IMG/VR virus record: IMGVR_UViG_3300027849_000451
Span: 1 to 43,976 of that record
Source of the DNA: a virus
Reading direction: 5' to 3' (one strand)
Length of the DNA stretch: 43,976 nt
A program made the position numbers and the translations under genes. The number at the start of each line of letters is the position of its first letter. Positions within the stretch are counted from its first letter, which is position 1. The notes beneath the pieces are model-generated. The model made no database searches. It was not told where the DNA came from and saw nothing but the letters and a program-made list of their open reading frames with translations. Of the stretch, positions 16,457 to 42,539 are shown piece after piece.

Positions 16457-16492
16457 TATAACTATTCTATATAAACTATAACGGAGAAATAA

Positions 16493-17593: not shown

Positions 17594-17605
17594 ATAACAT
17601 AATAG

Positions 17606-17613
17606 AGTAAATA
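17606..17613 (+). promoter_or_regulatory. Possible late promoter AGTAAATA, 5 bases from ATG
   Basis: AGTAAATA followed by TACAC and ATG 17619 repeats the octamer-N5-ATG geometry, with changes at the first two positions. An overlapping alternative, AATAAATA at 17589-17596 on the metK stop codon, would give a short leader instead. One of the two may be real. Confidence 0.35.
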
Positions 17614-17618
17614 TACAC

Positions 17619-22636: not shown

Positions 22637-22677
22637 GAATCCTCAATCACAATCACAAATCGTTGATACATCTTAAT

Positions 22678-22685
22678 GATAAATA
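22678..22685 (+). promoter_or_regulatory. T4-like late promoter octamer GATAAATA ahead of a ~19 kb operon
   Basis: Exact GATAAATA in the longest gap of the window (22637-22736). Predicted +1 near 22691 gives a ~46-base leader with TTAGGAG (22724-22730) before ATG 22737. No later octamer was found in a gap until 42003. Confidence 0.65.
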
Positions 22686-22736
22686 TAAGAGTAGTTAACT
22701 CTACACACATTATTTAAATAAACTTAGGAGAACAAC

Positions 22737-24761: not shown

Positions 24762-25546
24762 CAGATCAAGAGATTTTAGATTACATTTTTAAAAAATGGG
24801 GCAAGCAAGAAGAGATGCGAGCCTTTAACGAACAGTATCGTTACACACCGCCTTACCCAACATTGCATGTTGAAGACTTTGTTCCGCCTCATGTAGCAAA
24901 AGCATTACACGAAGAAAGCAAGACTATACCTAAAGCATTTTGGACAACGTTCACTAGAGCTGACAGCTATATGGAAGAGTGCAATGACCTAGAAGAGGCG
25001 CCAGTTGCCAGAGCAGTAGTTAGTGCATTACACAGCAAGTCTTTCTTAACATGGTTAAGTAAAGTTTGTGACGTAGGTCATTTACTTCCTGATCCGTATC
25101 TTGTTGGTGCAGGGTATATGAAAAGTTATACAGGTGATAGTTTAAAAATACACACCGACTTTAATTGGAACGAGCAATGTCAAACACACAGAGCATTAAG
25201 TTTAATTTTATACTTTACACCTGAGTGGGACGAAGCATGGCACGGTGATTTACAATTTTGGGACTTCGAACGAACTGAAAAGATTGTAAGTTATCCACCT
25301 AAGATGGGCAACGTAGTAATTTGGAAGTATCACAAAAGAGGCTTCCATGGACACCCTAATCCAATTGCGTGTCCTGAAGATAGATTCAGAGCAGGCTTTA
25401 GATTATTTTACTATACTAGCGATAGTGTACATGATTGGAGAGATGCTCCACACAAAAGTTTATATTGGTATGACGGTGAGAAGAACCAGCCATATCACAT
25501 TGACGCAGAATACGGACACGGGAACTTAGATGCTAACGAAGATTAA
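24752..25546 (+). CDS. 2-oxoglutarate/Fe(II) oxygenase (prolyl-hydroxylase-like)
   Basis: A 264-residue protein. The facial triad is seen as KIHTDFNW (H134, D136) and the distal H199 in RGFHGHPNP; the 2-oxoglutarate-binding Arg is R217 in RAGFRLFYY. SLILYFTPEWDEAWHGDLQFWD fits the double-stranded beta-helix of P4H-like 2OG-FeII_Oxy enzymes. These hydroxylate or oxidatively modify peptides, sugars or lipids, releasing CO2 and succinate. Overlaps both neighbouring genes, so it is translated with them. It needs O2, whereas radical SAM enzymes are oxygen-sensitive; both in one operon is noteworthy. Confidence 0.86.
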   Translation: MVITDQEILDYIFKKWGKQEEMRAFNEQYRYTPPYPTLHVEDFVPPHVAKALHEESKTIPKAFWTTFTRADSYMEECNDLEEAPVARAVVSALHSKSFLTWLSKVCDVGHLLPDPYLVGAGYMKSYTGDSLKIHTDFNWNEQCQTHRALSLILYFTPEWDEAWHGDLQFWDFERTEKIVSYPPKMGNVVIWKYHKRGFHGHPNPIACPEDRFRAGFRLFYYTSDSVHDWRDAPHKSLYWYDGEKNQPYHIDAEYGHGNLDANED

Positions 25547-26534
25547 TGTTTGTAACAACGAACTAAACATACCTAGGTACGATAACCCGCTATTTTTACG
25601 ATGCGGTGAGAGTATCGATATCAGCGAAGTTGATGCCGCTGAGTTTAAAGGTGGGTATGCTTTACAAGATCCTCTGATAACATCTAAACTTATTGAGTAT
25701 TGCAGAAATGCTTTCCAAGATATATTTGTTGCAGATGGTAAACATAATATACAACAAGAATATAAAGAAGTATTCAGAGACTGGATTAACTCATCGAAAC
25801 TTAATCAGATTCATGGCTTAGATTTATTCCAGCATACAAGTATTACAAACGGTACCACAGAAGCATTCAGCATGTTTATGCAACGTCATAACAACAGACG
25901 TTTTAAGATTGCAAGAGGAGACTTTATGTTGCATAAGGTTGCTTGTAACTCGATGGATCTGGATTGGGAATGGTTGACAGAACATAATGCACTAGAGCCA
26001 GGTGATGCGTTAATTATTAGTTGCCCGTTCAGTGACACAGGCTGTAAACATCGCGAGATGGACGACTTGTTATTAACTGCATCAAGAATGGATGTGCCTG
26101 TATTAGTAGACATGGCGTACTTTGGTATGTGCGTTAACATAAATATAGACCTGACCCATAAGTGTATCGAAGAAGTAGTGTTTAGTTTAGGCAAGACGTT
26201 TCCTGTTATTGGTGCTAGAGCAGGCATTAGATTCCAAAAAGATGAGATAGATGATGCCGTAGTGTTTGCAAATCAGAACGGCATTGTTAATAACTTTGCA
26301 TGTAAGATAGGCGTGTTCTGTATGTTAAACTGGTCACCAGATTACATACCCCACAAGTATTATGATGCCTACTATGCTATGTGCTTACACAATGATTTAG
26401 AGGTAACTAACTGCGTTTTGTTTGCTACATCGCGAGATGCTAAATATTCAAGTATAAACAGAGGCAACAACAGCTCAAGACTGTGTGTCAGTAAATTTTT
26501 ATTAGAGAACTATAATGTCTACAAAGAAGAATAG
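25530..26534 (+). CDS. PLP-dependent aminotransferase-like protein
   Basis: A 334-residue protein with features of fold-type I aminotransferases. SITNGTTEAFSMF is the phosphate-binding turn, IISCPFSDTGCKHREMDDL matches the N-P-x-x-P-T-G-like region, VPVLVDMAYFGMC carries the Asp that pairs with the pyridine nitrogen (D194), and FSLGKTFPVIGARAGIRF carries the Schiff-base Lys (K222) followed by the G-x-R-x-G turn. It is short for the family (~380-400), with a reduced N-terminus. Likely transfers an amino group to a keto-sugar or related compound. Overlaps by 17 and 20 bases with its neighbours. Confidence 0.78.
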   Translation: MLTKINVCNNELNIPRYDNPLFLRCGESIDISEVDAAEFKGGYALQDPLITSKLIEYCRNAFQDIFVADGKHNIQQEYKEVFRDWINSSKLNQIHGLDLFQHTSITNGTTEAFSMFMQRHNNRRFKIARGDFMLHKVACNSMDLDWEWLTEHNALEPGDALIISCPFSDTGCKHREMDDLLLTASRMDVPVLVDMAYFGMCVNINIDLTHKCIEEVVFSLGKTFPVIGARAGIRFQKDEIDDAVVFANQNGIVNNFACKIGVFCMLNWSPDYIPHKYYDAYYAMCLHNDLEVTNCVLFATSRDAKYSSINRGNNSSRLCVSKFLLENYNVYKEE

Positions 26535-27930
26535 ATTCGGATTCGAATACAATGTCTGCGACACAAAGGAATTCTTTGATCCAGACTTTAAGTATTGCTC
26601 ATTGTTATGGAGCCATATTAGTAACGAGCCGGGCGGTACAGTAAGAACTTGCTGTATAGCAAAGGATAGAATTAAAGACGACCTGGGTAATGATTATAAC
26701 TTGGGCGAACACTCAATGCTTGAAATACTTAACAGTAACACAATGTTTGAAATGAGAAACAGAATACGTGACGGGCAAGACATACACAACTGTGAAACAT
26801 GTTGGGTAGACGAACGTAACGGCAAAGAGTCTAAAAGACAACAGTACAACAACTATTACAAAGAGTGGTACGGTGACGACTGCATTAACTTCCAAGATGA
26901 ACCGCATAGATTAATTGACGTACAGTTAATTTTTGATAACACTTGTAACTTAAAATGTAGAAGTTGTAATACAAACTACAGCAGTAAGTGGAGAGAAGAA
27001 TCCATAGACAGGAACATTCCGTTCTGGGAAACAACTGCTGAAATTAATATGAATGACATAGAGAGAAGTGCGTTCTGGAGGACCATGGATGAATGGACTG
27101 AAGGTGTAATGCGTATGGAGATTATGGGCGGTGAGCCGTTCTATATGAAAGAGTTTAAACAGTTCGTGGACTACTTAATTGAAACAGGTAGGTCAAAGAA
27201 TGTTGCACTAACATTAAGTACTAACGGTACTATTGCTGACAGGGACTTCTTAGCTAAGATGGTTGCCAACTTCAGAGACATAGCATTCAGTGTTAGCATC
27301 GACGGCATAGAAGATAAGTTTACATACTTAAGACATCCAGGCAAGTGGGACGTAGTAAAGGATAACTTAGACTACTATTACGAATTACACAACAGTGACA
27401 ACTCTGTATTCGTTCAGATAACGCACACGGTAACCGCACTAAATATAATGTACTTGCCAGAGTTCCATGAGTACTTCGAGACTACATATCCAAACTTTAA
27501 GATTTGGAATAATGCTGTACATTATCCTAAATGGATATCAGCGCCAGTACTCCCAGCAAAAGCAAAGAAGCTTATTACAGATAAGTTGCTACGACATAAT
27601 TGGTTATCTAAGTATAGAGACGAAGCCAATGCACTAGTAAATTTTATGAACTCGGCACTATATGAAAATGGCGATAGTGTAGTAGAAAGTTTAAAAGGAA
27701 AGTTTGATGCTGACAAGTTAAAGTTCTTTGATGAACGTAGCAGTCAGCAGAAGTGGACGATATTCAAATCTCAAATAGTGGGAGGAGATATATACAGGGA
27801 AGAAAACTTTGTAACAGTTTTCCCTGAACTGTATGACTTAATTAAACATGAGTTTGATTATGATGCAGAATTTGAAGCAGTGTCGACAGCAGGGTTCCTG
27901 CCAGTCAGTCAAGGGGAGTACAGCAATTGA
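26515..27930 (+). CDS. Radical SAM protein 4 with N-terminal twitch-like region
   Basis: A 471-residue protein beginning 20 bases inside the preceding gene. N-terminal cysteines are YCSLLWSH, RTCCIAKDR and CETCWVDE; the core is CNLKCRSC (C144, C148, C151), with SSKW after it as in other members. EIMGGEPFYM is the SAM-binding motif and VSIDGIEDKF is the later strand seen across the set. The stop TGA overlaps the TTG start of the next radical SAM gene, so the two are translationally coupled. Enzyme class is clear; the substrate is not. Confidence 0.9.
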   Translation: MSTKKNRFGFEYNVCDTKEFFDPDFKYCSLLWSHISNEPGGTVRTCCIAKDRIKDDLGNDYNLGEHSMLEILNSNTMFEMRNRIRDGQDIHNCETCWVDERNGKESKRQQYNNYYKEWYGDDCINFQDEPHRLIDVQLIFDNTCNLKCRSCNTNYSSKWREESIDRNIPFWETTAEINMNDIERSAFWRTMDEWTEGVMRMEIMGGEPFYMKEFKQFVDYLIETGRSKNVALTLSTNGTIADRDFLAKMVANFRDIAFSVSIDGIEDKFTYLRHPGKWDVVKDNLDYYYELHNSDNSVFVQITHTVTALNIMYLPEFHEYFETTYPNFKIWNNAVHYPKWISAPVLPAKAKKLITDKLLRHNWLSKYRDEANALVNFMNSALYENGDSVVESLKGKFDADKLKFFDERSSQQKWTIFKSQIVGGDIYREENFVTVFPELYDLIKHEFDYDAEFEAVSTAGFLPVSQGEYSN

Positions 27931-29171
27931 GTAATACATATTGCCCGCTACCTTGGAACCACTTAGCAACACACCCGCACGGTGGAGTTACACTATGTTG
28001 TATAAGTGACCATACTGATGGACTGAACCGAGCAAGGAATTTTAAAGAGGACTATAGTGAGTTCTTTGATTTAAATAAGCAGTCAGTTGAACAACACATG
28101 AACAGTGATTACTATAAAGAAGTTAGACTGCAAATGCTAAACGATGAAAAGCCAAAGGCTTGCATGAGGTGTTACGATGAAGAGGACAAAGGAATTAAGA
28201 GTAAGCGACAACACGAGGCCGAAGTATTTAAGCAGGGTTCCATTGATTGGGCATCCGAACTTACTAGTGCGGACGGGAGCATTCCTATGGATCTTCGTTT
28301 TGTTGAGCTTCGTCTTGGTAATGTGTGCAACGTTAGGTGTCGTACATGTAATCCTGCAAGTAGTTCTAAGTGGTTGGAAGACTATAAAGACATCGTGCAG
28401 AAGGCTGACTTCATCAACAAAGGATACCTAGGACTTAACTTCCCAGAAGATTTTAAGTGGGCAGAGGACGATAACTTCTATGATGAATTATTTGAAGCTT
28501 CACCTAACCTAGAACTATTATATATTAATGGCGGGGAGCCAACATTAATTAAACAACATTGGGCGTACTTACGAAAATTAGTTGACAGTGGCAGAAGCAA
28601 GAACGTTATACTATGGTATAATATTAATTGCACTATGCTACCACCTATTGCTTTAGAACTGTGGCCCGAGTTCAAAGAAGCAAGAATTTGTTTAAGCATT
28701 GATGACCTGGAAGACAGGAATGCTTTTATAAGAACAGGAACTAACTGGAATGCTGTATTAAAAACTATTGATACATTAAAGCAAAATCAAGACAAGTTAG
28801 TTCTACGAATAACACAAACTGTTAGTGCATATAATTATGCAACGTTGCCTGAATTCTTTAAATGGGCAGAGATGAATGGGATAGAGGTTGACATGAACTT
28901 CGTGTATGATCCTGATTACCTAAGTCCTGCGGTTATACCCGCTAAGGCTCGAGAGTTGATACATACAGAATTTAGAGAAGCATTAGGCAATGACCACAAA
29001 CTAGGAACCCTGTTGAGCATGTTTAACAACAGTGATTGGGATGAGTTAAAGTGGGAACAGTTTTGTCGTTATAACGATTTATTAGATAAGAATGATGAGA
29101 GTGACTGGAGACAGGCATTCGGTAAACTTGTAAACAAGGTAGAAGAAAGTGGATATACTAGCATTTACTAG
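27927..29171 (+). CDS. Radical SAM protein 5 with N-terminal twitch-like region (TTG start)
   Basis: A 414-residue protein from TTG 27927, which overlaps the previous TGA and has GGGGAG about 8 bases upstream. The N-terminus is YCPLPWNH, TLCCISDH and CMRCYDEEDKGIKSKR; the core is CNVRCRTC (C134, C138, C141) followed by SSSKW; the SAM motif is YINGGEPTLI. CLSIDDLEDRNAFIRTG is the strand-turn matching VSIDGIEDKF in radical SAM 4. This is among the more compact members of the set. It is followed by the desaturase-like gene with a 23-base overlap. Confidence 0.9.
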   Translation: MSNTYCPLPWNHLATHPHGGVTLCCISDHTDGLNRARNFKEDYSEFFDLNKQSVEQHMNSDYYKEVRLQMLNDEKPKACMRCYDEEDKGIKSKRQHEAEVFKQGSIDWASELTSADGSIPMDLRFVELRLGNVCNVRCRTCNPASSSKWLEDYKDIVQKADFINKGYLGLNFPEDFKWAEDDNFYDELFEASPNLELLYINGGEPTLIKQHWAYLRKLVDSGRSKNVILWYNINCTMLPPIALELWPEFKEARICLSIDDLEDRNAFIRTGTNWNAVLKTIDTLKQNQDKLVLRITQTVSAYNYATLPEFFKWAEMNGIEVDMNFVYDPDYLSPAVIPAKARELIHTEFREALGNDHKLGTLLSMFNNSDWDELKWEQFCRYNDLLDKNDESDWRQAFGKLVNKVEESGYTSIY

Positions 29172-29913
29172 ACCTAAACTCGTAGTGTTAAGATGCTTAA
29201 TGCATCTTGGACTGGCTACGGCTGTGGTACTAGGACCAAGCAACTACTTGTGGATATCACTTGTAGCATACTTTTGGTTTGCCAGTATAGGTAACAGTGT
29301 TGGACAGCACAGATACTTTGCACATAAGACATTTAAGACAAGCAAACTATGGGAACGTATTTTAATTGCTAGTGCTACACTGGCTAGTGTTAGTAGTGTG
29401 TTCGGATACATTGTAACCCATAGAGAACATCATAAGCACACAGACGATGGATTAGACCCCCACAGCCCGCACCATATGAGTACACTCCGTAGTTGGACAC
29501 TGGACTTAACTGATACAGGACGTTGGGACTTGCGTAATGCAAAAGACTGGATAAAGAACAAAGATGTAATGAATGCACACAAATACTTCTTTGCTTATAT
29601 ATTAATATATGTTATAATACTAGCACTCATTGATCCGATGTTAGTAGTGTATGGATATCTAGTACCAGCTAGTTTATGTGTATGGGCAACTGGTGCCTTC
29701 AACACATGGGGACATGGACACGGATTAAAGAGCCTGGGTTATAGGACTTGGGAAACAAAAGACAAAAGTGTTAATCATCATTTAGTTAACTTAATAACTT
29801 TCGGTGAAGGATGGCACAACAATCATCATAACAACCCTGGTGCATGGCATCAAGGTGAGAAGTGGTGGGAATGGGATTTAAACGCATGGATAATAAGATT
29901 AATAAAACAGTAG
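29149..29913 (+). CDS. Fatty-acid/acyl desaturase-like membrane protein (GTG start)
   Basis: A 254-residue protein starting at GTG 29149 inside the preceding gene. Three His boxes are intact: HRYFAH (54-59, HX4H), HREHH (91-95, HXXHH) and WHNNHH (H223, H226, H227), the di-iron ligands of membrane desaturases/hydroxylases. Hydrophobic segments near residues 15-50, 65-85, 145-185 fit four membrane spans. EGWHNNHHNNPGAW is typical of acyl-CoA desaturases of bacteria. Desaturation of host or pathway acyl chains is the likely reaction. It is set between radical SAM 5 and 6, with overlaps on both sides. Confidence 0.88.
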   Translation: MDILAFTRPKLVVLRCLMHLGLATAVVLGPSNYLWISLVAYFWFASIGNSVGQHRYFAHKTFKTSKLWERILIASATLASVSSVFGYIVTHREHHKHTDDGLDPHSPHHMSTLRSWTLDLTDTGRWDLRNAKDWIKNKDVMNAHKYFFAYILIYVIILALIDPMLVVYGYLVPASLCVWATGAFNTWGHGHGLKSLGYRTWETKDKSVNHHLVNLITFGEGWHNNHHNNPGAWHQGEKWWEWDLNAWIIRLIKQ

Positions 29914-31184
29914 AAGAAATAAAGAAGTTAGCAGAAGGTGAAGCGTTCTGTATCCTGCCGTGGATACACATGCACCCTTGGCCCGATGGCAGAGTGTTTA
30001 CATGTTGCTTGAGTGAGCATGACTCACCTATCGGTAACTTGAACGAGATGGACCTAGATGAATGTTACAACAGTGATAACATGAAGTCGTTTAGATTAGA
30101 CATGCTCGACAATAAGAAAGTATCTAACTGTAATAGATGTTATGAGCTAGAAGAAGTAGGACATGATACGTTGCGTAAGAGAAGCAACGATGAATTCATA
30201 TTTGAAAAGTACGGCTTACATGAAGACAAGTCGCCTATTGTACAAAAGACAAAACTGGACGGCAGTTTAGACGAAGTACATTTAACTTACATGGACATCC
30301 GGTTCAGTAATATATGTAACATGCGTTGTAGAACATGCGGTCCTGATTTAAGTAGTCAGTGGTTTGAAGAAGCAGTTGACAGCAAATTTAATAGAACTCC
30401 CGAACAAAAGATATTACAGATAAGAAAAGGTAATACTGCATTCATGGAACAGTTCGATCCGTACTTGCACACAGTAGAGAAAATTTATTGGGCAGGTGGT
30501 GAGCCATTGCTTATGGACGAGCATTGGTACATCATGAACAAGTTAGTTGAGATGGGTAGAACAGATGTACGAATATTTTACAACACTAACTTTAGTAAAC
30601 TAACATATAAGCAAGAAGATGCCGTTGAGCTTTGGAAGAAGTTTGAGCATGTTAGCATCGGTGCTAGTTTAGATGCAGGATGGGAGAAGGGCGAGTACTT
30701 GCGTAAGGGAACTATCTGGTCTGACACAATGGCAAACAGAGAACGCTTAAAGCAAGAACTACCACAACATGACTTTAACATCAGTTGTACTGTTAGTATA
30801 TTTAATGTGTTAGATGTATGCGACTTCTACAGGAAGTTATGCGATATAGAATTTATAGAACCAAAAGACTTTGGAGTTAACATCTTACTAGGTAAGCATG
30901 TACACAGAGCAACAGTATTGCCACTGCACATGAGACAGCGAGCAATAGAACAGATTAAAGAAACGTTAGCATGGATCGAAGGCAAAGACCAAGTAGGTCG
31001 TGCAACAGACACGTTCAACAGTTTACTACAGTTTATGGAAGGTGACGACAGCCACTTGCTATCAGACAGTATGCAGGAAGCAAAAGAGATGGACAGGTTC
31101 AGAGCAGAGACATTGTTTGAAGTGTTCCCTGAGCTGAGCGACATAAGTTCATACTACAATGAAGGTGAACCTTTTGGCGAATAG
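29886..31184 (+). CDS. Radical SAM protein 6 with N-terminal twitch-like region
   Basis: A 432-residue protein from ATG 29886 (28-base overlap with the desaturase gene); ATG 29862 would add 8 residues. N-terminal cysteines are FCILPWIH, TCCLSEH and CNRCYELEE. The core is CNMRCRTC (C144, C148, C151) followed by SSQW, and YWAGGEPLLM is the SAM-binding motif. The region after the core contains EKGEYLRKGTIW, matching the YLRHPGKW/FIRTGTNW block in other members. Enzyme class is clear; substrate unknown. Confidence 0.9.
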   Translation: MDNKINKTVEEIKKLAEGEAFCILPWIHMHPWPDGRVFTCCLSEHDSPIGNLNEMDLDECYNSDNMKSFRLDMLDNKKVSNCNRCYELEEVGHDTLRKRSNDEFIFEKYGLHEDKSPIVQKTKLDGSLDEVHLTYMDIRFSNICNMRCRTCGPDLSSQWFEEAVDSKFNRTPEQKILQIRKGNTAFMEQFDPYLHTVEKIYWAGGEPLLMDEHWYIMNKLVEMGRTDVRIFYNTNFSKLTYKQEDAVELWKKFEHVSIGASLDAGWEKGEYLRKGTIWSDTMANRERLKQELPQHDFNISCTVSIFNVLDVCDFYRKLCDIEFIEPKDFGVNILLGKHVHRATVLPLHMRQRAIEQIKETLAWIEGKDQVGRATDTFNSLLQFMEGDDSHLLSDSMQEAKEMDRFRAETLFEVFPELSDISSYYNEGEPFGE

Positions 31185-32400
31185 ACCAGAACATTTTTGT
31201 ATACTACCTTGGATAAACCAAGAAGCTCGTACTAACGGAGAGATAGGTGTGTGCTGTGTTATGCAGGAGACTGTACCAGACATGAACCTAGCAGATGGCG
31301 CCACACTTAAAGATGCCTGGGAAAGCAAATGGTTAGCAGACTTGAAGGGAGACTTCTTAGCAGGAGAGAAACCTAAGGCATGTTACAACTGCTGGAACGA
31401 AGAAGACGCAGGCATTGATAGTAAACGTTTACGAGAACTTAGAAAGTTTGCACACCACGTGGATAACTTGGAGCATGCCAAACCAAAGAGCATGGATTTA
31501 AAATTAGGAAACATTTGTAATACTAAGTGTAGAATATGTACAGGCTTTGCAAGTAGTCAGTGGGTGCCAGAAGAAATAGAACGTGACGGTGAGTCTAATC
31601 AGTTTGCACAACTGATGGGTAGGCTAGGACGTTGGCCCGAACTAAATGAAAAGTTCTGGGAAGACATAGAAAGTCAAATCGAAGAAGTAGAGAGTTTAGA
31701 ATTCTTTGGCGGTGAGCCGTTCTTAATTAAAAGACATTTCGATATACTACAGACATTAGCAGACAAGGGCAGAGCAAAGGATATAACATTAAGTTATAAT
31801 ACTAATGGTTCTATATACCCTGCACAACATATGGACTTACTTAAACAGTTTAAAGATGTGCAAGTGTTCTTTAGTATAGACGGCACAGGTGATAGGTTTA
31901 ATTATATTAGACACCCACAGCAGTTTGATGAAGTAATGGAAAACTATTGGAAGTTCAAAGCAACAGATTTTATTAGAACAAACATTTTTTATACAGTTAG
32001 TATATTTAATATTATGTATATGGATGAGTTACTAGAGTACCAAAAAGAACATAACATTGAAACTGAAATACATTTCAATATGGTATATGTTCCGCAACAC
32101 ATTAGTCCTAAAGCATTACCTAAGAAAGCCAAAGAAGCCGTTACAGCAAAGTTTAAAGACCATAGCGATCATAGAATACAAAGCACACTAAACTTTATGA
32201 ACCAGGAAGACTACACAGGCTACATGGATGAGTTTGTAAGACAGACTGCATTCAGTGATAGGTATAGAGACGAGAGTATTGCTAGTACCTTCCCTGAGTT
32301 ATACAAGTATGTTAGACCATGGTTCGAGAAAGAAGATGTAATGGCATTACAAGAACAAATGCAATTTTTAAAAGCAGGTAATAAACATGACAAGTTATAG
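31159..32400 (+). CDS. Radical SAM protein 7 with N-terminal twitch-like region
   Basis: A 413-residue protein, ATG 31159, 26-base overlap with the preceding gene. N-terminal cysteines: FCILPWIN, GVCCVMQE, CYNCWNEEDAGIDSKR. The core is CNTKCRIC (C120, C124, C127) followed by SSQW; EFFGGEPFLI is the SAM motif. FSIDGTGDRFNYIRHP is the strand-turn shared with radical SAM 4. MVYVPQHISPKALPKKAKE near the C-terminus matches FVYDPDYLSPAVIPAKARE of radical SAM 5, so these two are close relatives. Confidence 0.9.
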   Translation: MKVNLLANRPEHFCILPWINQEARTNGEIGVCCVMQETVPDMNLADGATLKDAWESKWLADLKGDFLAGEKPKACYNCWNEEDAGIDSKRLRELRKFAHHVDNLEHAKPKSMDLKLGNICNTKCRICTGFASSQWVPEEIERDGESNQFAQLMGRLGRWPELNEKFWEDIESQIEEVESLEFFGGEPFLIKRHFDILQTLADKGRAKDITLSYNTNGSIYPAQHMDLLKQFKDVQVFFSIDGTGDRFNYIRHPQQFDEVMENYWKFKATDFIRTNIFYTVSIFNIMYMDELLEYQKEHNIETEIHFNMVYVPQHISPKALPKKAKEAVTAKFKDHSDHRIQSTLNFMNQEDYTGYMDEFVRQTAFSDRYRDESIASTFPELYKYVRPWFEKEDVMALQEQMQFLKAGNKHDKL

Positions 32401-33688
32401 TAAAACATTCTGTCCTTATCCGTGGATACACATAATGACACAGCCTAGTAGTACTATTAATATATGTTGTGTTGCTACAGGTCAAATTAAAAAGGATGAC
32501 GGTAGCATACTAATGCTAAACAAGGGTGACGATATTTCTACAGTATGGAATAACAATCACTATCGTAAGATTAGAAAGCAAATGATAGAAGGCGAACGTG
32601 TCGATGGTTGCCAACCTTGCTACGAACTAGAGGACTTGGACATACCAAGTTACAGAGAGAACTACATTAAAGACTGGATGGGGTTCCACCGTAATGCAGA
32701 TCAAATAAAAGAAATAATAGACAAGAGTATTGTAAATGATTATGTTGTAGAAGAAGCACCACAGTACTTAGACTTTAGACTAGGAACACTATGTAACTTA
32801 AGATGTAGAATGTGCCAGAGTCAAAACAGCAGTGCAATCTACAAGGAGTTACAAGATGAAGAATTATACACCCAAGAAGAAAGACAGTTTGTCGTGGATA
32901 CAAGTCACTGGGGTGACTTTAGTGATTACACTCAGCCTTGGTTTGATGATCCTGGCTTCCTTTCAACAGTCGAAGAATGGTTGCCTAATGTCAATAGGCT
33001 ATACTTCACCGGCGGTGAGCCCACTATTATACAGCGAGTGTATTGGATCCTCAACAAGTGTATCGAACTCGGAATAGCAAAAGATATTGACTTAGTGTTT
33101 AACAGTAACATGACTAACATACAGCCTAGGTTCTTAGAAACCATAGGACAGTTTAGAGATGTATTAATGTGTTTAAGTGTAGACGGCTATGCTCAATACA
33201 ACGATTACATTAGAAGTGGAAGCACATGGAGTGTTATCGACAAGCACATCAGAGACTATGCTGATTCAGAAGTAGTGGGTAACATTTTGTTTAGTCCTGT
33301 TATACAAATATATAACATACTAAACATCACAGACTTACTTGACTATGCTGAAGAGATATCTAATGAGAGTGGACGTAGGATTGATATTAGTTTCTTATTA
33401 AACAACTATCCAAAGTGTTTAGACATTAGAAACTTACCACAGAACATACGTGACGTTGCTGTACAGAGATTAGAGTCTTGGTCAGCAACAAGCAAGTACT
33501 TTGATGCAGACGAACGTAACAAGCAGACTGTGTTAGGATTAATTAAAGCATTGAAAGAATCGTACAACGATGACAGTGAACAACAGATGGAAGTATTCAA
33601 ACAGTACACGTTACTACTTGACAGCAAACGTGACCAGAGTATTAAAGAAAGTATACCTGAACTATGGGAGTTGCTAGATTGGACGTAA
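32387..33688 (+). CDS. Radical SAM protein 8 with N-terminal twitch-like region
   Basis: A 433-residue protein, 14-base overlap with the preceding gene. N-terminal cysteines: FCPYPWIH, NICCVATG, CQPCYELED. The core is CNLRCRMC (C136, C140, C143) followed by SSAI rather than SS-x-W, a small departure from the other members. YFTGGEPTIIQ is the SAM motif and CLSVDGYAQYNDYIRSG the following strand-turn. It is the last of the five closely packed radical SAM genes in this operon, ahead of the SGNH-hydrolase-like gene. Confidence 0.9.
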   Translation: MTSYSKTFCPYPWIHIMTQPSSTINICCVATGQIKKDDGSILMLNKGDDISTVWNNNHYRKIRKQMIEGERVDGCQPCYELEDLDIPSYRENYIKDWMGFHRNADQIKEIIDKSIVNDYVVEEAPQYLDFRLGTLCNLRCRMCQSQNSSAIYKELQDEELYTQEERQFVVDTSHWGDFSDYTQPWFDDPGFLSTVEEWLPNVNRLYFTGGEPTIIQRVYWILNKCIELGIAKDIDLVFNSNMTNIQPRFLETIGQFRDVLMCLSVDGYAQYNDYIRSGSTWSVIDKHIRDYADSEVVGNILFSPVIQIYNILNITDLLDYAEEISNESGRRIDISFLLNNYPKCLDIRNLPQNIRDVAVQRLESWSATSKYFDADERNKQTVLGLIKALKESYNDDSEQQMEVFKQYTLLLDSKRDQSIKESIPELWELLDWT

Positions 33689-34413
33689 GCAATAAGCAAT
33701 GGTTATACGTTAGCGGCTGTAGTCATTTAGCAGGTAGTGAGGTTGTCGAGCAAGGTAATACTGCTAGGACTAACGAAGCAGTTGGCTTAGTGTGGCCCGG
33801 ACTACTAGCAAAGGAATACGAGTTAAACTATATTAATCAATGTATGCCAGGTGCTAGTAATGATTACATAGTTAGAAGTACTATGCAGTTTGTTTCTAAG
33901 TGGATAGCACAGGGCAGAGACCCTAGTGAACTATTAGTTGTAATCGGCTGGAGCACTAACGAACGTATGGAGTTTACACACGAACACGATGGGCATACTC
34001 AACACTATCATTGGGCTAACGGCTGTGACTATAAGTCTTTTTATAAAGACGGGCAAGGTCCTAACTTTAAAAATTGGTTTAAAGCCTTACAACTATATCA
34101 TACCGACTTTGACTTCGGAATGACCAAGCGTGTAATAAATATTACTCTACTAGATACATTCTTAAAAAGTGTAGGAGTAGAGTACATACAAACGAACAGT
34201 TGTGCAAAAATGGACCAAGGACAGTGGGAGTTTTTGAATATAGAACATCTGAAGGACGCATTTCCTTTTGAAACGTTCTTTGAACCATATGATAGTTTCG
34301 TGGATCAATATAAAGATGATTACCCAGAACACTTTTCAGATTGGTTACATGCAGATGCGTATATACATGAACAGTACTATAGCAAATTTAAATCACAACT
34401 AGCAGGAATGTAA
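33664..34413 (+). CDS. SGNH/GDSL hydrolase-like protein
   Basis: A 249-residue protein; ATG 33664 lies 25 bases inside the previous gene, with TTG 33679 as an alternative. LYVSGCSHLAGSE carries the nucleophile-type Ser (S20, in place of GDS), MPGASNDYIV is block II, VVIGWSTNERMEF replaces the GxND block III, and SDWLHADAYIHEQYY has the D226-x-x-H229 dyad of block V. These are the features of SGNH esterases/acyltransferase-like enzymes. It probably hydrolyses or transfers an ester (for example acetyl) on a glycan. No signal peptide, so it acts in the cytoplasm. Confidence 0.75.
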   Translation: MGVARLDVSNKQWLYVSGCSHLAGSEVVEQGNTARTNEAVGLVWPGLLAKEYELNYINQCMPGASNDYIVRSTMQFVSKWIAQGRDPSELLVVIGWSTNERMEFTHEHDGHTQHYHWANGCDYKSFYKDGQGPNFKNWFKALQLYHTDFDFGMTKRVINITLLDTFLKSVGVEYIQTNSCAKMDQGQWEFLNIEHLKDAFPFETFFEPYDSFVDQYKDDYPEHFSDWLHADAYIHEQYYSKFKSQLAGM

Positions 34414-34414
34414 A

Positions 34415-34633
34415 ATGAGTAAAGACGAAATGAATGGATTAGGTAAGACAACTAAGGTCGTAGACCAAGGTGACTTATACGGCAATCCAATAGTAGACGA
34501 AACAAAGAAACCAAACACAGTACAGGATGTGGATCTAGACCTTGATGACGTTGAGCTTTCGGAAGAGGAAGAAGCGATGTTAAAGAAGAAACTTGATAAT
34601 ATCAGGAAGAACGATCCCTTTATATATAGATGA
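34415..34633 (+). CDS. Small acidic protein
   Basis: A 72-residue protein starting one base after the previous stop and ending in an ATGA overlap with the carbamoyltransferase gene. It is strongly acidic in the middle (DVDLDLDDVELSEEEEAML) with a short Lys/Arg-rich end (KKKLDNIRKNDPFIYR). The N-terminus is Gly/Lys-rich and probably disordered. There is no Cys and no leader-core pattern that would make it an obvious RiPP precursor. Function unknown; an adaptor for a neighbouring enzyme is possible. Confidence 0.65.
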   Translation: MSKDEMNGLGKTTKVVDQGDLYGNPIVDETKKPNTVQDVDLDLDDVELSEEEEAMLKKKLDNIRKNDPFIYR

Positions 34634-36198
34634 GAATATTAGGAATTAGCAGTATGTTTCATGACGCAAGTACTTGTGTTATTGAAGACGGGCAGATATT
34701 ATTTGCTGGACATGCCGAACGATATAGTCGTGTAAAGAACGACCCGTTTATAAACCAGAAACTTATGAAGGACACATTGAAACACGGCTTGCCTGATGTT
34801 ATTGTTTTCCACGAGAGCAGTAAACTAAAGCAGAAGCGTAGACTGAAACAAATGACTTGGAGTAGTATTAAGTCTGTGTTTACAGAACCTACTGCGGAAG
34901 AATGGATTGCAAAATACTATCCACAGCTAAAAGGTATTCCAGTAACTAACTGTCTACATCATGAGAGTCATGCCGCGGCAGGAGTGCTAACTAGTGACTT
35001 CGACGAAGCGGCTGTAATGACTATCGATGCTATCGGTGAAGAACAAACAGCAACAATTTATAAATGGTCTACACAACGAGGCGGTTCAACTAGGCTGGAC
35101 TTAATGCACGAAGTTAAGTTTCCAAATAGTTTAGGATTGTTCTATAGTGCTGTAACAGGTGCTGTAGGTTTAAAGCCTATGGAAGATGAATACATACTAA
35201 TGGGCATGGCGGCATACGGCAAGCCTCTGTATGTAAATAAAATTAACAACGAATTATTTAAACACCCACTAACTGAAACACGGCATGGACAAATAGACGG
35301 CGATGTAAGAACTGCTATGGAAACTATTGACATGAGCAAAGGATTGCCTAAGAACTTTATGAGTGCTGAAGCATTAGCAGACGAGCAAGTACAGTTTGAC
35401 TTAGCCGCAAGTGCCCAGGTGGTGTGTGAACAACGTATTATGGCTTACGCAAAGTTAGCCAAAGAGTATACACAAAGTAATAACCTTGTGTTTATGGGAG
35501 GGTGTGCATTAAACTGTGTAGCAAACGCTAGACTATATGACCTCTATCAGAACGTACACATTATGCCTAACCCAGGTGACGCAGGCTCCAGTTTAGGAGC
35601 CGCGGCACTTTATTATTATAAAGCCACAGGTAACAGAGTTAATTGGGAAACACCTTTCTTAGGTTATACAATTAACGGAGCCTGGCCCAAAGAAAAGTTC
35701 CTTGCAAGTTTACGCAAAGGAGAAATATTTGGCGTTGCAAATGGTGCCGCAGAGTTCGGACCAAGAGCATTAGGCAACAGGAGTTTGTTTGCTGATCCTA
35801 GAGGGGAACTAATAAAGGATCAAGTAAATGAAATTAAACGTAGACAAAAGTTCAGACCCTTTGCTCCAATTGTTCTAGAGGAACATGCAAGTGATTGGTT
35901 TGAAATGCCGGGAGGCAAACTCGACTCACCTTACATGCAGTTCATTGCTAAGTGTAAGAGACCAAACGAGATACCTGCAGTTGTACATGGGGATGGTACA
36001 AGCAGAGTGCAAACAGTTAATAGGAAGAGTCATCCAGAACTATACCATGCTATGAGACAATGGCATGCTGAGTCCGGGTGCCCTATTGTTCTTAATACAA
36101 GTTTAAATATTAAAGGACAGCCGATTGTGAACACAGCAAAAGAGGCAGAGGAATTTGCCAAACACTATAAGGTCCCTGTACATGTACGAGATGACTAA
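34630..36198 (+). CDS. NodU/CmcH-family carbamoyltransferase
   Basis: A 522-residue protein (family usually 550-600). MRILGISSMFHDASTCVIEDG is the N-terminal ASKHA-fold start, CLHHESHAAA (H110, H111, H114) carries the His motif that binds metal/ATP, and MTIDAIGE follows. The C-terminal YrdC-like domain has GVANGAAEFGPRALGNRSL, KFRPFAPIVLEEH and CPIVLNTSLNIKGQPIV, all conserved blocks. These enzymes add a carbamoyl group, made from carbamoyl phosphate and ATP, to sugars or antibiotics. Homologues occur in other marine phages to my knowledge. It likely decorates the glycan made by this operon. Confidence 0.93.
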   Translation: MRILGISSMFHDASTCVIEDGQILFAGHAERYSRVKNDPFINQKLMKDTLKHGLPDVIVFHESSKLKQKRRLKQMTWSSIKSVFTEPTAEEWIAKYYPQLKGIPVTNCLHHESHAAAGVLTSDFDEAAVMTIDAIGEEQTATIYKWSTQRGGSTRLDLMHEVKFPNSLGLFYSAVTGAVGLKPMEDEYILMGMAAYGKPLYVNKINNELFKHPLTETRHGQIDGDVRTAMETIDMSKGLPKNFMSAEALADEQVQFDLAASAQVVCEQRIMAYAKLAKEYTQSNNLVFMGGCALNCVANARLYDLYQNVHIMPNPGDAGSSLGAAALYYYKATGNRVNWETPFLGYTINGAWPKEKFLASLRKGEIFGVANGAAEFGPRALGNRSLFADPRGELIKDQVNEIKRRQKFRPFAPIVLEEHASDWFEMPGGKLDSPYMQFIAKCKRPNEIPAVVHGDGTSRVQTVNRKSHPELYHAMRQWHAESGCPIVLNTSLNIKGQPIVNTAKEAEEFAKHYKVPVHVRDD

Positions 36199-36490
36199 CA
36201 CCAGCGGAATATATTCAGCAAAGGAACTTTCAGATATGTCACGTGAACCGTGGCAGTGGGATCCTTCATTAAGTCCAGAAGAATGCATGATGTGGAAAAT
36301 GAAAAACAAATGCCATGTATGTGGTATTGATCCTCGGTTCCACAGAGACGACTGTGAGTTTAGTAGTATACAATTGCACTGGGCTTATACTAGTATAGAA
36401 CGAGAACTAGAAAATGCAATGCCACTCCCTTCTCTAAGTGATGTATCGAGTGACCGACTAATAGCTACTATTAACGAGCTTAACAAATAA
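36191..36490 (+). CDS. Small CxxC protein, possible zinc binding
   Basis: A 99-residue protein if it starts at ATG 36191 (8-base overlap); ATG 36182 is an alternative. NKCHVCGIDPRFHRDDCEF has two Cys as CxxC, then a His and a Cys, which could bind zinc. Before it, WQWDPSLSPEECMMWKMKN is a helical segment with another Cys. The C-terminal half is a mixed helix. The stop TAA ends on the first base of the next gene's ATG. I do not recognise the family; a nucleic-acid or protein-binding role is possible. Confidence 0.6.
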   Translation: MTNTSGIYSAKELSDMSREPWQWDPSLSPEECMMWKMKNKCHVCGIDPRFHRDDCEFSSIQLHWAYTSIERELENAMPLPSLSDVSSDRLIATINELNK

Positions 36491-39400
36491 TGTACGATAT
36501 ATTTTACATTGGTGAGAACACATCACTAAAAGAAAGGCTACCGTTTGCCAGTCAGGTTAACGATGTAGACAGCATTAAATCAAATACAAGAATGTACTGG
36601 ATAATTGATTCCAATACTAAAATAACCAATTGGGAAATTTTCGACTTTAAACCTGATACTCACACAGAGAAGTATCAGCATATATGGAAGTGGAACCAAG
36701 AGAATTACGGCGGGGTAAGTCTATTACCTAAACGTGAGAACACAGAAACTGTATGGCATAACAAAGTAGTATGTAAGAAATACTTCGACACATTGTTTGA
36801 AGATGCACCAGGGAATTACTTTGCAGAGAATCCTAACAGTACACACGTTTGGTGTGTGGATAGTGAATATGTCTTAGGGGAAGATATTGATTGGGCACCA
36901 GGGAACTTCGAACCCGATTTCATTCACAGCTTTCACTTACGTGGACAGCTAGAACATAAGTATCCTAAACAAGAAGGTGGCGTTAAGTTGTTCCCACGTG
37001 ATTGGGAGTCAGCTGATACAAAGTATCACAAGTTCCTAGATACCAATGTTGCATACCCAGTGTACTACACAAAGGATGTGGAACGTTATGCACAACGTAA
37101 TACATTCCAGACTGACTATGTTTGGTTAGTAGACGCACAGTACATGCCTAACTTGCACACATTCGATTGGGTACCTAATCCGTTTGAAGCTGATATGATA
37201 CATGCATTCAAAATGCCGTACCAGTTACAAGAGAAGTATCCAGATGCTATGGGTGGTATTAGATTAGTACCGATGGCATGGAGTAAGGCAGAGACTAAGA
37301 TACACAAAGCATGTCCAGTAGAAGACGAAGCCTACGATGTATTTTATGTAGACGAGGATGAGTTTACAGCAGACACATACAGTGAGTATGCTGAACGTAG
37401 TAAAACGGAATGGTTCTGGATAGTAGATAGGGATCATATGTTTAATGGTAAACTATTATATGTACCTAGTGTACACGAACGTGAATACATACATGTGTTT
37501 AAGATACCTGGACACTTAGAAGAACGTTATCCACTAGACGTAACAGACGCATGGGACAACCGATGCGGTGGTGTGCGGTTAGTACACAAAGACTTTGATA
37601 TCACAAAGCATAAGCACCAAGAAGATATATGTCCTGTACGGTATGATATATTTTATGCAGACGATATTAATGATTATGAGACTCCAGCAAGGAAGAGCAG
37701 AACGAAAATGTTCTGGCTTGTAGACAGTGAACATCAAATTAATGAGGATTTTAAATATGTACCACAACGATATGACCAGAAGTGCATACAGGTATTCAAG
37801 TTTCCGAATGACTTGGAACACAAATACCCCAGAGCAGTTACAAATATCAGCGACAACAGAGCAGGAGGTATCAAACTTGTACCGGTCAATGGGAACGGCG
37901 ATACCAAATACAACGACCAAAGCCCCGTCGGTGGTAAGACATACCCCATCAGATTTACTGACACATCAGATGAACCACTTACTGAAGATAGTTGGATAGT
38001 ACCTACAGCGTTTGAAGATGCTGTTAGTGTTATACCGTGGCAACCTAACGTGTTTGAAAAGAACACACAGCATGTATTTGCTAACGGACTATTAAAATGG
38101 ATGCCAGTTAATTGGAACGGAGATGTTAAAGAGCATGACTTCACTCCAATAGTAATGGATATAAAGTTTGAGAAGTTTGAATCGTACGAGCTCGGGTTGT
38201 TACTAAGCAGTTTTAATTGGTTCTGGGTAGTTGATCCAGACGTAACTGTACTAGAGACATTCGATTTTGACTTCCAACCTAATGTGTTTGACGAAGGTAA
38301 GTCACATGTATGGCAGAAACTAAATCCAATTACCAATAAGCAGTATGACTATGGTGGTGTTAGTTTAAGGCATAAGGATGAGAAGAAAGGTAGACCGAAG
38401 TATATCAGAGAACCTGCTTGTATGCAACAAGAGTTTCCGGTGTACCATGTACAGCCTAATGAACTAGTAGGTGGCTTAGACGGCGTCTACGAGAGTCTAG
38501 CACTACAAACAAGCACCAGCATGATGTGGGTAGTAGATGGCGCAGTTGCGTTAGACACAGACTTTGACTTTAGTTACTACCCTACGCATTATGACAACGA
38601 TGTTGTTCATGTATGGGAACATGAAGGTAGTAGTAGAGCAACAGGTGTTAGACTATTGCCAACTAATATAAAATATACTAGTGCAGAGCAAATTATAGAG
38701 AACAAGTTTGATCGACTTAAAGAGATGCCTAAGGTAGCGAGTAAAGAACCTACGTGGCCCTGTGAACAATTAACAGATGTAACTGTTGCGGGAGTACAAA
38801 AAATACTAGACAAGCATAGCGATACACATTATGTTTGGACAGTCGATCCTGATGTAGAACAAGACAACGACATTATAGCAGAAAGCATTATACCACATGA
38901 ACAGTTCATCGACAGTGTGCATGTTTGGAAAACATCTGTAGGTGCAGGTGGTCTTAGACTATGGCCCACAACATATGATACCAGCAACCTAACTGATGAA
39001 CAAGTGCTAACCAGTAGCATACCTGGACAATTAATTATAGATGCTGTGGCAGGAGAACATAAAGATTATGCTGTGTGTTATTTGAACAGCAATAGTAGTT
39101 TGCTAGAACAGATAAATCAATTCAGTGACCAATGTGAAAGTAATATGTTTTGGGTAGTTGATCCACATATTGAACTAATGGCTGACTGGACGTTTGATTA
39201 TGTGCCTAACAGATGGGAAGGACAAGTTGTACACATATGGCAACATGAGGGTAGCAGTAAGCACAGCGGGGTTAAGTTAATGCCCAAGGGTACTTACAGT
39301 AAGCAAGAGGTTAAAGAAAACAGTTATGTTAAACTAAAAGAAATAACTAGTGTGGCAAGTAAAGATCCTATATGGCCCATTGAACAATTAGAAAGCATGA

Positions 39401-41685
39401 CTAGTAAAGAGATACAAGGCGTATTAGCCAAGCACAATGATGTAAGTTATGTGTGGACTGTAGATCCGGACATCGAATTAGACGATAATATCATTAAACA
39501 AAGTATTATTCCACATACAGATAACAGTTTAGTTGTTCATGTATGGAAAAGAACAGACAATGAAGGGCTAGTTATAGGACATGGAGGGCTTAGACTATGG
39601 CCTACATCATATGATGCTAGTCAGTTAAGTGATGACCAAGTACTAACATGCAGTATTCCAGGACAATTAATACTAGATGCCGTAGCAGGAGAACAAAAAG
39701 AATACAGTATTTGTTATTTAAATAATGAATCTGCTATACTAGAACAGATAAACGAGTACAGTAGTCAGTGTGAAAGCAATATGTTCTGGGCTGTTGATCC
39801 TTATGTTGAACTAGCAAAGGGTTGGAAGTTTGATTATGTGCCTACTAAGTGGGAGGAGCATGTAGTTCATATATGGCAACATGAAGGTAGCAGTAAGCAA
39901 AGCGGAGTTAAGCTAATGCCTAATAGGACATATACTAAACAAGAGGTTAAGGACAATAGTTATGTTAAACTAAAAGAGATCTATAACATAGCAAGTAGAG
40001 ATCCTATATGGCCTGTAGAACAATTACATGACCTTACTAGTGAGGAAGTACAAGCAATCATAGCCAAGCACAAAGACGTAGGCTATGTGTGGACAGTAGA
40101 TCCAGACATAGACTTAGATGCAGACATTATTGCACAAAGTATTATGCCACACACTGACAACAGCAACATCGTTCATGTGTGGAAGAGAACAGACTCAGAC
40201 GGCTTAGTTATCGGACATGGCGGCATAAGGTTATGGCCTACAAGTTATGATGCTAGTCAGTTAAGTGATGAGCAAGTGTTGACTTGTAGTATACCTGACC
40301 AGTTAATATTAAATGCTACTGGTGGTGCACAAAAAGAATACCCTATCTTCAATCTAGATGCAGAAGAAGATATACTAGAACAACTTGCAGACTTTGATAA
40401 TAGATGTGAGAGTGCTATGTACTGGGTCGTCGATCCATGGGTTACTGTAGCAACAGACTTTAAATTTGATTTTATTCCTACTAAGTGGGAAGAAGATGCA
40501 GTACATGTGTTCCAAGACTCTAACGAAGACTTCAGAAGTATTAGATTAATACCACGTGGAACGTTTAATCTCATGCAGTACGACATTAAACAAATAGTTA
40601 ATAACAGTTTTAATACACTTAAACAGGTTTATACCGTAGCAACGTTACCCACATACTGGAAACAATACACGTTAAACACAGACATGGGTACACATAAACA
40701 ACATTTAGAACACATTCAAGCAGAGAATGATGATTGGTTCTACACAATAGATGATGATGTACAGCCGTTAGAGCAGTTTGTATTCGCACATACACCTCAA
40801 CTAGACAGTTTATACAAGACTCATGTGTGGCAAAGAACCAATTCACGCACAGGTTTAACACAAAGTTACGGTGGAGTTAGGCTATGGCCCAACCCTATTA
40901 GCTCAGTTATGAGTGAAGTAACCTCTGAAAAGATAAGATTAAACAAAATGGATGCAGGCAAACTACAGTATGTTAAAGAGCCAGCAAGTATTATAACACC
41001 TTATACAGTGTTCATGCTCAGTTATAAGGAAGATGAATCAATGGTTCAAGCACACATAGATGTTATTCAAGCAAAGGATGGTATTGATGTTGTGCATGTT
41101 AGAGGTGTAGAAGGTATCTTTAATGCACACAAGGCATGTGCTACACAGTGCAATACTAAAATGTTCTGGGTAGTTGATGCTGATGCACTAGTAAGCGATG
41201 ACTTTAACTTTGAATACATACCAGATGTGTATGACCAAGACGTTGTGCATGTGTGGAACAGTCGTAATCAAGTTACAGGCGAAGAGTACGGCTATGGTGG
41301 AGTTAAACTGTTTAACACACAGCAAGTAGCAGATGCTACATCGTGGGGACTGGACTTTACAACAGGACTTAGCAAACGTTTTAAATCAATGCCGCAGGTT
41401 AGTTGTGTAACAAACTTTAATGTAGATGCACACAGCACATGGCGTAGTGCGTTTAGAGAGTGTGTTAAGTTAACACTGAGTGTTGATCCAGATGCTCAAC
41501 GTAGATTAAGCAGTTGGTTACATCCACAGCCAGATGCACAGTTTGTTGCAGAAGCAGAAGCAGGCGCTGAGGCAGGCTATCAGTTCGCTTTAAAGAACAG
41601 AGATGACCCTGCTGTATTAAATAACATAAACGATTATACTTGGCTGGAGACGGAATGGACAAAGTTGAAAAGTATCTCAGAGTAA
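36490..41685 (+). CDS. Giant 1731-residue protein made of ~16 glycosyltransferase-core-like repeats
   Basis: The protein consists of about 16 units of the pattern W-x-VD-x-[DE], a hydrophobic strand, P-x-x-[WY]-x-x-x-x-VHVW, then GGVRLxP. The Trp (or aligned residue) falls at about 37, 121, 212, 310, 409, 502, 579, 680, 783, 888, 989, 1100, 1201, 1312, 1418 and 1560, a spacing near 100. Units with intact DxD (DRD, DPD, DDD, DAD) alternate with units with DPH, DPY or DPW. The last unit (EGIFNAHKAC, FWVVDADALV, GYGGVKLF) and the C-terminus align with the DGD glycosyltransferase at 13093. It has no signal peptide. Whether it is a multi-site transferase or a repeat scaffold is unknown. Overlaps both neighbours by 1 and 31 bases. 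Confidence 0.85.
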   Translation: MYDIFYIGENTSLKERLPFASQVNDVDSIKSNTRMYWIIDSNTKITNWEIFDFKPDTHTEKYQHIWKWNQENYGGVSLLPKRENTETVWHNKVVCKKYFDTLFEDAPGNYFAENPNSTHVWCVDSEYVLGEDIDWAPGNFEPDFIHSFHLRGQLEHKYPKQEGGVKLFPRDWESADTKYHKFLDTNVAYPVYYTKDVERYAQRNTFQTDYVWLVDAQYMPNLHTFDWVPNPFEADMIHAFKMPYQLQEKYPDAMGGIRLVPMAWSKAETKIHKACPVEDEAYDVFYVDEDEFTADTYSEYAERSKTEWFWIVDRDHMFNGKLLYVPSVHEREYIHVFKIPGHLEERYPLDVTDAWDNRCGGVRLVHKDFDITKHKHQEDICPVRYDIFYADDINDYETPARKSRTKMFWLVDSEHQINEDFKYVPQRYDQKCIQVFKFPNDLEHKYPRAVTNISDNRAGGIKLVPVNGNGDTKYNDQSPVGGKTYPIRFTDTSDEPLTEDSWIVPTAFEDAVSVIPWQPNVFEKNTQHVFANGLLKWMPVNWNGDVKEHDFTPIVMDIKFEKFESYELGLLLSSFNWFWVVDPDVTVLETFDFDFQPNVFDEGKSHVWQKLNPITNKQYDYGGVSLRHKDEKKGRPKYIREPACMQQEFPVYHVQPNELVGGLDGVYESLALQTSTSMMWVVDGAVALDTDFDFSYYPTHYDNDVVHVWEHEGSSRATGVRLLPTNIKYTSAEQIIENKFDRLKEMPKVASKEPTWPCEQLTDVTVAGVQKILDKHSDTHYVWTVDPDVEQDNDIIAESIIPHEQFIDSVHVWKTSVGAGGLRLWPTTYDTSNLTDEQVLTSSIPGQLIIDAVAGEHKDYAVCYLNSNSSLLEQINQFSDQCESNMFWVVDPHIELMADWTFDYVPNRWEGQVVHIWQHEGSSKHSGVKLMPKGTYSKQEVKENSYVKLKEITSVASKDPIWPIEQLESMTSKEIQGVLAKHNDVSYVWTVDPDIELDDNIIKQSIIPHTDNSLVVHVWKRTDNEGLVIGHGGLRLWPTSYDASQLSDDQVLTCSIPGQLILDAVAGEQKEYSICYLNNESAILEQINEYSSQCESNMFWAVDPYVELAKGWKFDYVPTKWEEHVVHIWQHEGSSKQSGVKLMPNRTYTKQEVKDNSYVKLKEIYNIASRDPIWPVEQLHDLTSEEVQAIIAKHKDVGYVWTVDPDIDLDADIIAQSIMPHTDNSNIVHVWKRTDSDGLVIGHGGIRLWPTSYDASQLSDEQVLTCSIPDQLILNATGGAQKEYPIFNLDAEEDILEQLADFDNRCESAMYWVVDPWVTVATDFKFDFIPTKWEEDAVHVFQDSNEDFRSIRLIPRGTFNLMQYDIKQIVNNSFNTLKQVYTVATLPTYWKQYTLNTDMGTHKQHLEHIQAENDDWFYTIDDDVQPLEQFVFAHTPQLDSLYKTHVWQRTNSRTGLTQSYGGVRLWPNPISSVMSEVTSEKIRLNKMDAGKLQYVKEPASIITPYTVFMLSYKEDESMVQAHIDVIQAKDGIDVVHVRGVEGIFNAHKACATQCNTKMFWVVDADALVSDDFNFEYIPDVYDQDVVHVWNSRNQVTGEEYGYGGVKLFNTQQVADATSWGLDFTTGLSKRFKSMPQVSCVTNFNVDAHSTWRSAFRECVKLTLSVDPDAQRRLSSWLHPQPDAQFVAEAEAGAEAGYQFALKNRDDPAVLNNINDYTWLETEWTKLKSISE
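36595..41300 (+). repeat. About 16 tandem ~100-codon protein repeats
   Basis: Coding repeats inside the giant gene, with unit spacing of 77-111 codons and one of 142. Conserved core: W-[VIT]-VD, P-[TN]-x-[WY], VHVW/HIW and GGxRLxP. Early units have diverged strongly; unit 6 (near residue 502) has lost the VD-x-D. See the second repeat entry for the young part. Confidence 0.8.
38521..40960 (+). repeat. Higher-order tandem repeat of ~212 codons (4 copies)
   Basis: The aligned codons for MMW/MFW/MYW start at 38521, 39145, 39781 and 40417, giving periods of 624, 636 and 636 bases. Copies 2 and 3 are nearly identical in protein over long stretches (VVHIWQHEGSSK, SGVKLMP, YVWTVDPDI, GGLRLWPTSYDASQLSD), so the last duplications are recent. 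Each copy holds two ~100-residue units, one with DPD and one without. Confidence 0.85.
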
Positions 41686-42531: not shown

Positions 42532-42534
42532 ATA
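42527..42534 (+). promoter_or_regulatory. T4-like late promoter octamer GATAAATA
   Basis: Exact GATAAATA spanning the end of the preceding gene's stop codon. GTACT (5 bases) separates it from ATG 42540; predicted +1 is the A of that ATG. Confidence 0.7.
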
Positions 42535-42539
42535 GTACT

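Follow-up and report, generated by a model that had tools for sequence, protein, structure and literature searches.

A complete GT-A domain preceded by an array of degenerate GT-A-like units in a phage protein

Introduction

Tandem repeat proteins usually take non-enzymatic folds as their building blocks. Chondroitin polymerase K4CP joins two full-size GT-A domains, both active. Collagen lysyl hydroxylase/glycosyltransferase LH3 places an active GT-A domain and a GT-A-like AC accessory domain, whose function has seemingly been lost, in one chain; this accessory domain is glycosyltransferase-like and carries DxD-type motifs but is apparently not enzymatic (PMC6082870). On the genomic side, the biosynthetic clusters of jumbo cyanophages include glycosyltransferases, carbamoyltransferases and 2OG oxygenases, as reported by Iyer et al. 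2021 (PMC7824862). No description of a GT-A repeat array was found in the open-access literature.

The window analysed here, a record of 43,976 bases from a large marine phage, encodes a long protein (the array protein) that resembles each of these systems in part. With K4CP (2z86) it shares the tandem placement of GT-A domains in a single chain, but where K4CP has two complete and active domains, the array protein has one domain that is complete by sequence, together with degenerate units. As in LH3, an inactive GT-A-like domain lies beside an apparently active one, judged from the sequences and as a resemblance in manner of working only. LH3 differs in having one full-size accessory domain, compared with 8-17 mini-units in the array family, and in that its chain also includes a lysyl hydroxylase (2OG) domain; the array protein shows no sequence similarity to LH3, with no Pfam hydroxylase match and no PDB sequence match. 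Glycosyltransferases, carbamoyltransferases and 2OG oxygenases are shared with the jumbo cyanophage clusters, whereas the text of that paper does not mention radical SAM and its relevant passages describe no glycosyltransferase repeat array.

The architecture is very likely one complete GT-A domain with an array of pseudo-GT-A units. The full reading preferred here, a GT-A enzyme with a single active site plus a non-catalytic array that serves as a scaffold for an acceptor or glycan, is given a probability of about 0.5.

Units of the array protein

The open reading frame (Table 1) begins with ATG, has no internal stops and encodes a protein of 200 kDa with a predicted pI of 4.8 and no transmembrane-like segment. 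The first-pass annotation had described a 1731-residue protein of about 16 repeats spaced near 100 residues, and this description stands. An HMM seeded on the array protein finds 16 stretches, the cores of units of ~100 aa, and a second HMM, trained only on the units of relatives with the window excluded, recovers the same 16. With the latter model 15 units have iE values of 1e-9 to 1e-26 and scores of 23-76 bits; the degenerate unit 6 reaches 2e-4 and 7.6 bits, against 7.5 bits for the best of 200 shuffled copies. Chance repetition as the source of the units was rejected on these shuffles. Core-to-core spacing is mostly 86-110 residues and is larger around unit 6 and before the last unit. TRF found no tandem repeat in the DNA; either the divergence between copies or the length of the period exceeds what that program can handle. 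The DxD motif is intact in units 4, 7, 9, 11, 13, 15 and 16, in agreement with the earlier count of about seven.

Table 1 Features of the array gene and its neighbourhood (window coordinates; aa, residues of the array protein).
Feature	Positions	Strand	Basis or remark
Single-domain GT-A relative (334 aa), homologue of array C-terminal domain	13093..14097	+	BLAST, hhalign
Radical-SAM/SPASM and sugar-modification cluster	14246..34413	+	Pfam, PHROGs
NodU-like carbamoyltransferase	34630..36198	+	Pfam PF02543/PF16861, PHROG 1601, synteny
Small ORF (111 aa) between carbamoyltransferase and array gene; 1-base overlap with array start	36155..36490	+	
ORF of array protein	36490..41685	+	1731 aa
Unit 1 core (aa 30-82), N-terminal block	36577..36735	+	unit HMM
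Unit 2 core (aa 116-172)	36835..37005	+	unit HMM
Unit 3 core (aa 205-264)	37102..37281	+	unit HMM
Unit 4 core (aa 303-368), D-R-D	37396..37593	+	unit HMM
Unit 5 core (aa 402-465)	37693..37884	+	unit HMM
Unit 6, degenerate remnant (aa 508-532)	38011..38085	+	weak in both unit HMMs; iE 2e-4, 7.6 bits
Unit 7 core (aa 573-630), odd type, DPD and GG retained	38206..38379	+	unit HMM
Unit 8 core (aa 673-726), even type, without DxD	38506..38667	+	unit HMM
Unit 9 core (aa 775-829), odd type, DPD	38812..38976	+	unit HMM
Unit 10 core (aa 881-934), even type	39130..39291	+	unit HMM; 71% identity with unit 12
Unit 11 core (aa 981-1041), odd type, DPD	39430..39612	+	unit HMM; 75% identity with unit 13
Unit 12 core (aa 1093-1147), even type, duplicate of unit 10	39766..39930	+	unit HMM, pair identity
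Unit 13 core (aa 1193-1253), odd type, duplicate of unit 11	40066..40248	+	unit HMM, pair identity
Unit 14 core (aa 1305-1356), even type	40402..40557	+	unit HMM
Unit 15 core (aa 1411-1469), odd type, DDD	40720..40896	+	unit HMM
Complete C-terminal GT-A domain (aa 1491-1731; unit-16 core aa 1553-1611)	40960..41682	+	hhalign, domain alignment; invariant H, DAD, GGVK, FRECVK

The complete C-terminal domain and the upstream units

A kinship between the repeats and the single-domain DxD protein encoded at 13093 had been proposed from motif order, and profile comparison bears it out. The last ~230 residues of the array protein are homologous to the 13093 family (hhalign 99.7%, E 1.9e-25, 209 columns, 29% identity), and the two proteins match directly in BLAST at E 7e-13. 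Standalone proteins of ~230-290 aa in other phages and a few bacteria are further homologues of this domain. An alignment of 40 complete domains has invariant or near-invariant positions in H, DxD, GGxK and FRExxK, with DxD, the metal/nucleotide-sugar binding motif, invariant across all 40. DxD, H and the FRE motif are each present in the last domain of 36/36 members of the array family.

The units upstream of this domain follow another pattern. None of them has the FRE motif (0/356), and the residues common at the H position do not include H. When odd and even classes are set by counting back from the C-terminus, DxD is found in 57/97 odd, 1/78 even and 34/181 N-terminal units, and GG is retained in 82/97 odd units; both the odd and even classes are blurred by proteins with extra N-terminal-type units in mid-array. 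The alternation of DxD first noticed in the C-terminal part of the window protein is in this way a family-wide property. The distance from the first strand to DxD is ~30-38 residues in upstream units compared with ~62 in the complete domain, and a strand-helix segment of the donor half is missing; upstream units have neither a complete donor-binding half nor the conserved catalytic-domain residues. A profile of the complete domain matches single repeat units independently, with E down to 3e-18. By these sequence features the upstream units are derived from GT-A glycosyltransferases but are not members of that class as enzymes. The earlier picture of 16 equivalent repeats gives way to one enzyme and 15 degenerate units, with the invariant residues confined to the last; 16 equal catalytic units were rejected because catalytic residues are lost upstream. 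The description as an array of GT-A half-domains holds for the shortened upstream units but fails for the last, which is a complete GT-A domain.

Standard family models do not capture these proteins. Pfam GT2 models (PF00535, PF13641) reach 16 bits at best, below the gathering cut-off of 23.3, and match at most 5/40 complete domains at E<=0.1. Pfam and PHROGs scans of the array protein and the 13093 protein gave no significant family, and a PDB sequence search with profiles A2, A3 and A6 returned nothing related. Other phages have 2 or 3 single-domain genes from this GT-A family side by side (L074:3247-6076 and L072:7986-10800), one s13-like and one like the array C-terminal domain.

The predicted structures resemble GT-A enzymes. 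An AlphaFold model of a nine-unit homologue (1014 aa, locus L104), built from a 30-sequence alignment, has a pLDDT of 83.3 and a pTM of 0.49; the predicted units appear fairly confident and their mutual arrangement does not, and with this pTM the overall shape of the array is not given by the prediction. All top PDB matches of this domain-containing model are GT-A proteins, with K4CP first, followed by LH3 and Mimivirus R699, although the search does not indicate the matching part of the query; further matches include HddC and a PBCV-1 glycosyltransferase, among others. Units 11-12 of the window protein (aa 940-1172) were folded from a 50-row alignment of the two-unit module, the whole-family mid-array alignment (A4) being too shallow. 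This model (pLDDT 90.0, pTM 0.77) has the topology beta-alpha-beta(DxD)-beta-alpha-beta-beta-alpha-beta in each unit. Its listed PDB matches are mostly GT-A but weak (best E 0.009, TM about 0.2-0.3). Neither model pointed to a fold unrelated to GT-A. Its best matches in the viral library, at TM about 0.5, are BFVD entries A0A6J5LK21 (804 aa, E 6.6e-8) and A0A6J5L5L5 (1076 aa, E 7.9e-7), unannotated proteins of uncultured Caudovirales phages that, by fold similarity to the module, are probably further array proteins.

Distribution and evolution of the family

The search for homologues with other repeat numbers, suggested at first pass, found array homologues in 40 IMG/VR loci; the complete ones have 997-1953 aa and 9-18 units. 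Distant phages have 1, 2, 3, 4 or 6 units, and the complete domain is C-terminal in nearly all of them; in L180 and L193 the sequence continues beyond it. Two long ORFs with few divergent units detected, L182:2-4303 (1434 aa) and L180:5041-8214 (1058 aa), are possibly other fusions; L180 has an additional FRE-type motif upstream as well as sequence past the glycosyltransferase domain.

The first five units and the last units are positionally orthologous across the family, and the middle expands. In the window protein, the unit pairs 10/12 and 11/13 exceed all other pairs in identity, which points to recent duplication of a 212-aa two-unit module. In the closely related L107 the array is one module shorter, at 14 units; the L107 array protein is 71% identical to that of the window, compared with 87-96% for most genes of the cluster. 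Omega values of about 0.05-0.2 show that purifying selection acts on the repeats, at a level similar to that on the glycosyltransferase domain, and decay of a dead gene was rejected on these values. Array units are gained and lost as two-unit modules and are maintained by selection.

The complete-domain family comprises at least 595 confirmed stretches in IMG/VR. A tblastn search of INPHARED (~50,000 phage records) with seven family members gave no match, and a genome scan with profile A1 found nothing; near records may have been omitted from both searches. A genome scan with profile A6 recovered relatives in Bdellovibrionia, Photorhabdus and others. The complete domain was observed on bacterial contigs (L208-L223) from Bdellovibrionia/Oligoflexia MAGs, Photorhabdus, a Neomarinimicrobiota MAG and a Rickettsiales MAG, adjoining radical SAM genes on some of them; part of these occurrences may be phage sequence.

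Genomic context

Jumbo phages such as PA5oct and XaC1 have virion proteins similar to the product of the first gene of the window, and the contig of one relative spans 339,794 bases. The array gene lies at the end of a biosynthetic gene run, whose radical-SAM cluster also encodes SAM synthetase, UDP-sugar dehydrogenase, methyltransferase, 2OG oxygenase, aminotransferase, desaturase and DUF6071 proteins. A carbamoyltransferase gene lies upstream of the array gene in 37/37 homologous loci examined, usually next to it or separated from it by a single small ORF; in L006 three ORFs intervene. Radical SAM genes occur near distant relatives in at least 37/69 viral and at least 9/16 cellular loci, many of these loci being short, and in Photorhabdus a single-domain relative lies between GT4 and GT2 genes.

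Several other features of the neighbourhood were recorded. A number of the radical SAM enzymes of the cluster (19863-33688) have a SPASM-like domain N-terminal of the radical SAM domain (for example 30-116, then 162-272), the reverse of the usual domain order. A 418-aa protein at 10175-11431 has no Pfam or PHROG match; its relatives lie directly upstream of the carbamoyltransferase in several loci (for example L084, L088 and L104), and it is distant from it in the window. Downstream of the array gene, at 42016-43976, are a DUF5658-like ORF and a CHASE2-domain ORF that runs off the contig end. Neither has a counterpart in homologous loci, which have a ~230-aa gene there instead. The two ORFs may have been acquired, or may be host sequence that became joined to the end of the contig.

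Function of the array

Probably the array protein is a single-site, cytosolic glycosyltransferase encoded by a jumbo-phage-like virus. Homology and the invariant residues suggest that its C-terminal ~230 residues would act as a DxD-type GT-A domain transferring sugar from a nucleotide-sugar donor. The 15 upstream units would form a long non-catalytic scaffold for the acceptor or growing glycan, a role put forward tentatively, at a little under even odds. The glycan held by the array would be carbamoylated and otherwise modified, as the product of the neighbouring gene cluster, and the scaffold would let the single C-terminal site act on an acceptor that is long or multivalent. By analogy with jumbo cyanophages, which carry sugar-modification clusters with carbamoyltransferases and 2OG enzymes, the product could plausibly be a modified surface glycan or a small glycoconjugate. 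More speculatively, array length might set the reach or length of the product; that the protein represents a new class of repeat protein, its enzyme core recycled as a tandem binding module to make an arm or ruler whose unit number, altered in two-unit steps, determines the reach or length of a phage glycan, is a doubtful extension.

The retention of DxD in 57 and GG in 82 of the 97 odd units lends some weight to a different reading, an assembly-line polymerase in which odd units are extra active sites that add several sugars in sequence; polymerases with two GT-A active sites do exist, and one of them, K4CP, is the top fold match. This is quite improbable, since DxD is gone from 40% of odd units, the FRE motif occurs in no upstream unit, H is not common there, and the strand-helix segment of the donor half is absent. 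The GT-A-like domain of LH3 persists with DxD-type motifs without apparent activity, so that DxD in odd units is no proof of catalysis. Both motifs are nonetheless kept above the level of simple decay, so some odd units might, on this sequence pattern, still bind metal or nucleotide. Among the functions guessed at first pass, then, the lost catalytic residues speak against many active sites in one chain, the best fit would be a scaffold or a sugar-binding role, and a DNA binder found no support.

In a further reading, the array may bind not a glycan but the cluster enzymes (carbamoyltransferase, radical SAM), channelling one substrate between them. Fixed linkage of the array gene to the carbamoyltransferase, and linkage to radical SAM genes that extends to many distant relatives, speak for such a docking platform, but gene linkage alone is no proof of contact and repeat number is more variable than cluster composition seems to require; multi-unit arrays are also found in loci where no carbamoyltransferase is seen, though those loci are short. 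Docking is on balance unlikely. Least probable of all is a part of the particle derived from an enzyme, structural or binding a receptor or glycan. The array does evolve faster than its neighbours, as the comparison with L107 indicates, its repeat number varies, and virion genes lie within the same window; against this, the array gene terminates a biosynthetic rather than a structural gene run, a complete conserved transferase domain is present, and no tail or fibre family in Pfam or PHROGs is matched.

In this family an enzyme core was cut down and repeated as many as 17 times in front of a single complete copy. Present-day intermediates with 1, 2, 3, 4, 6 and 9-18 units make the path of origin testable. 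The finding also points to a widespread, unnamed family of viral glycosyltransferases that often lies near radical-SAM genes and, in the array group, always near a carbamoyltransferase, and whose products are therefore probably unusual phage-made glycans.
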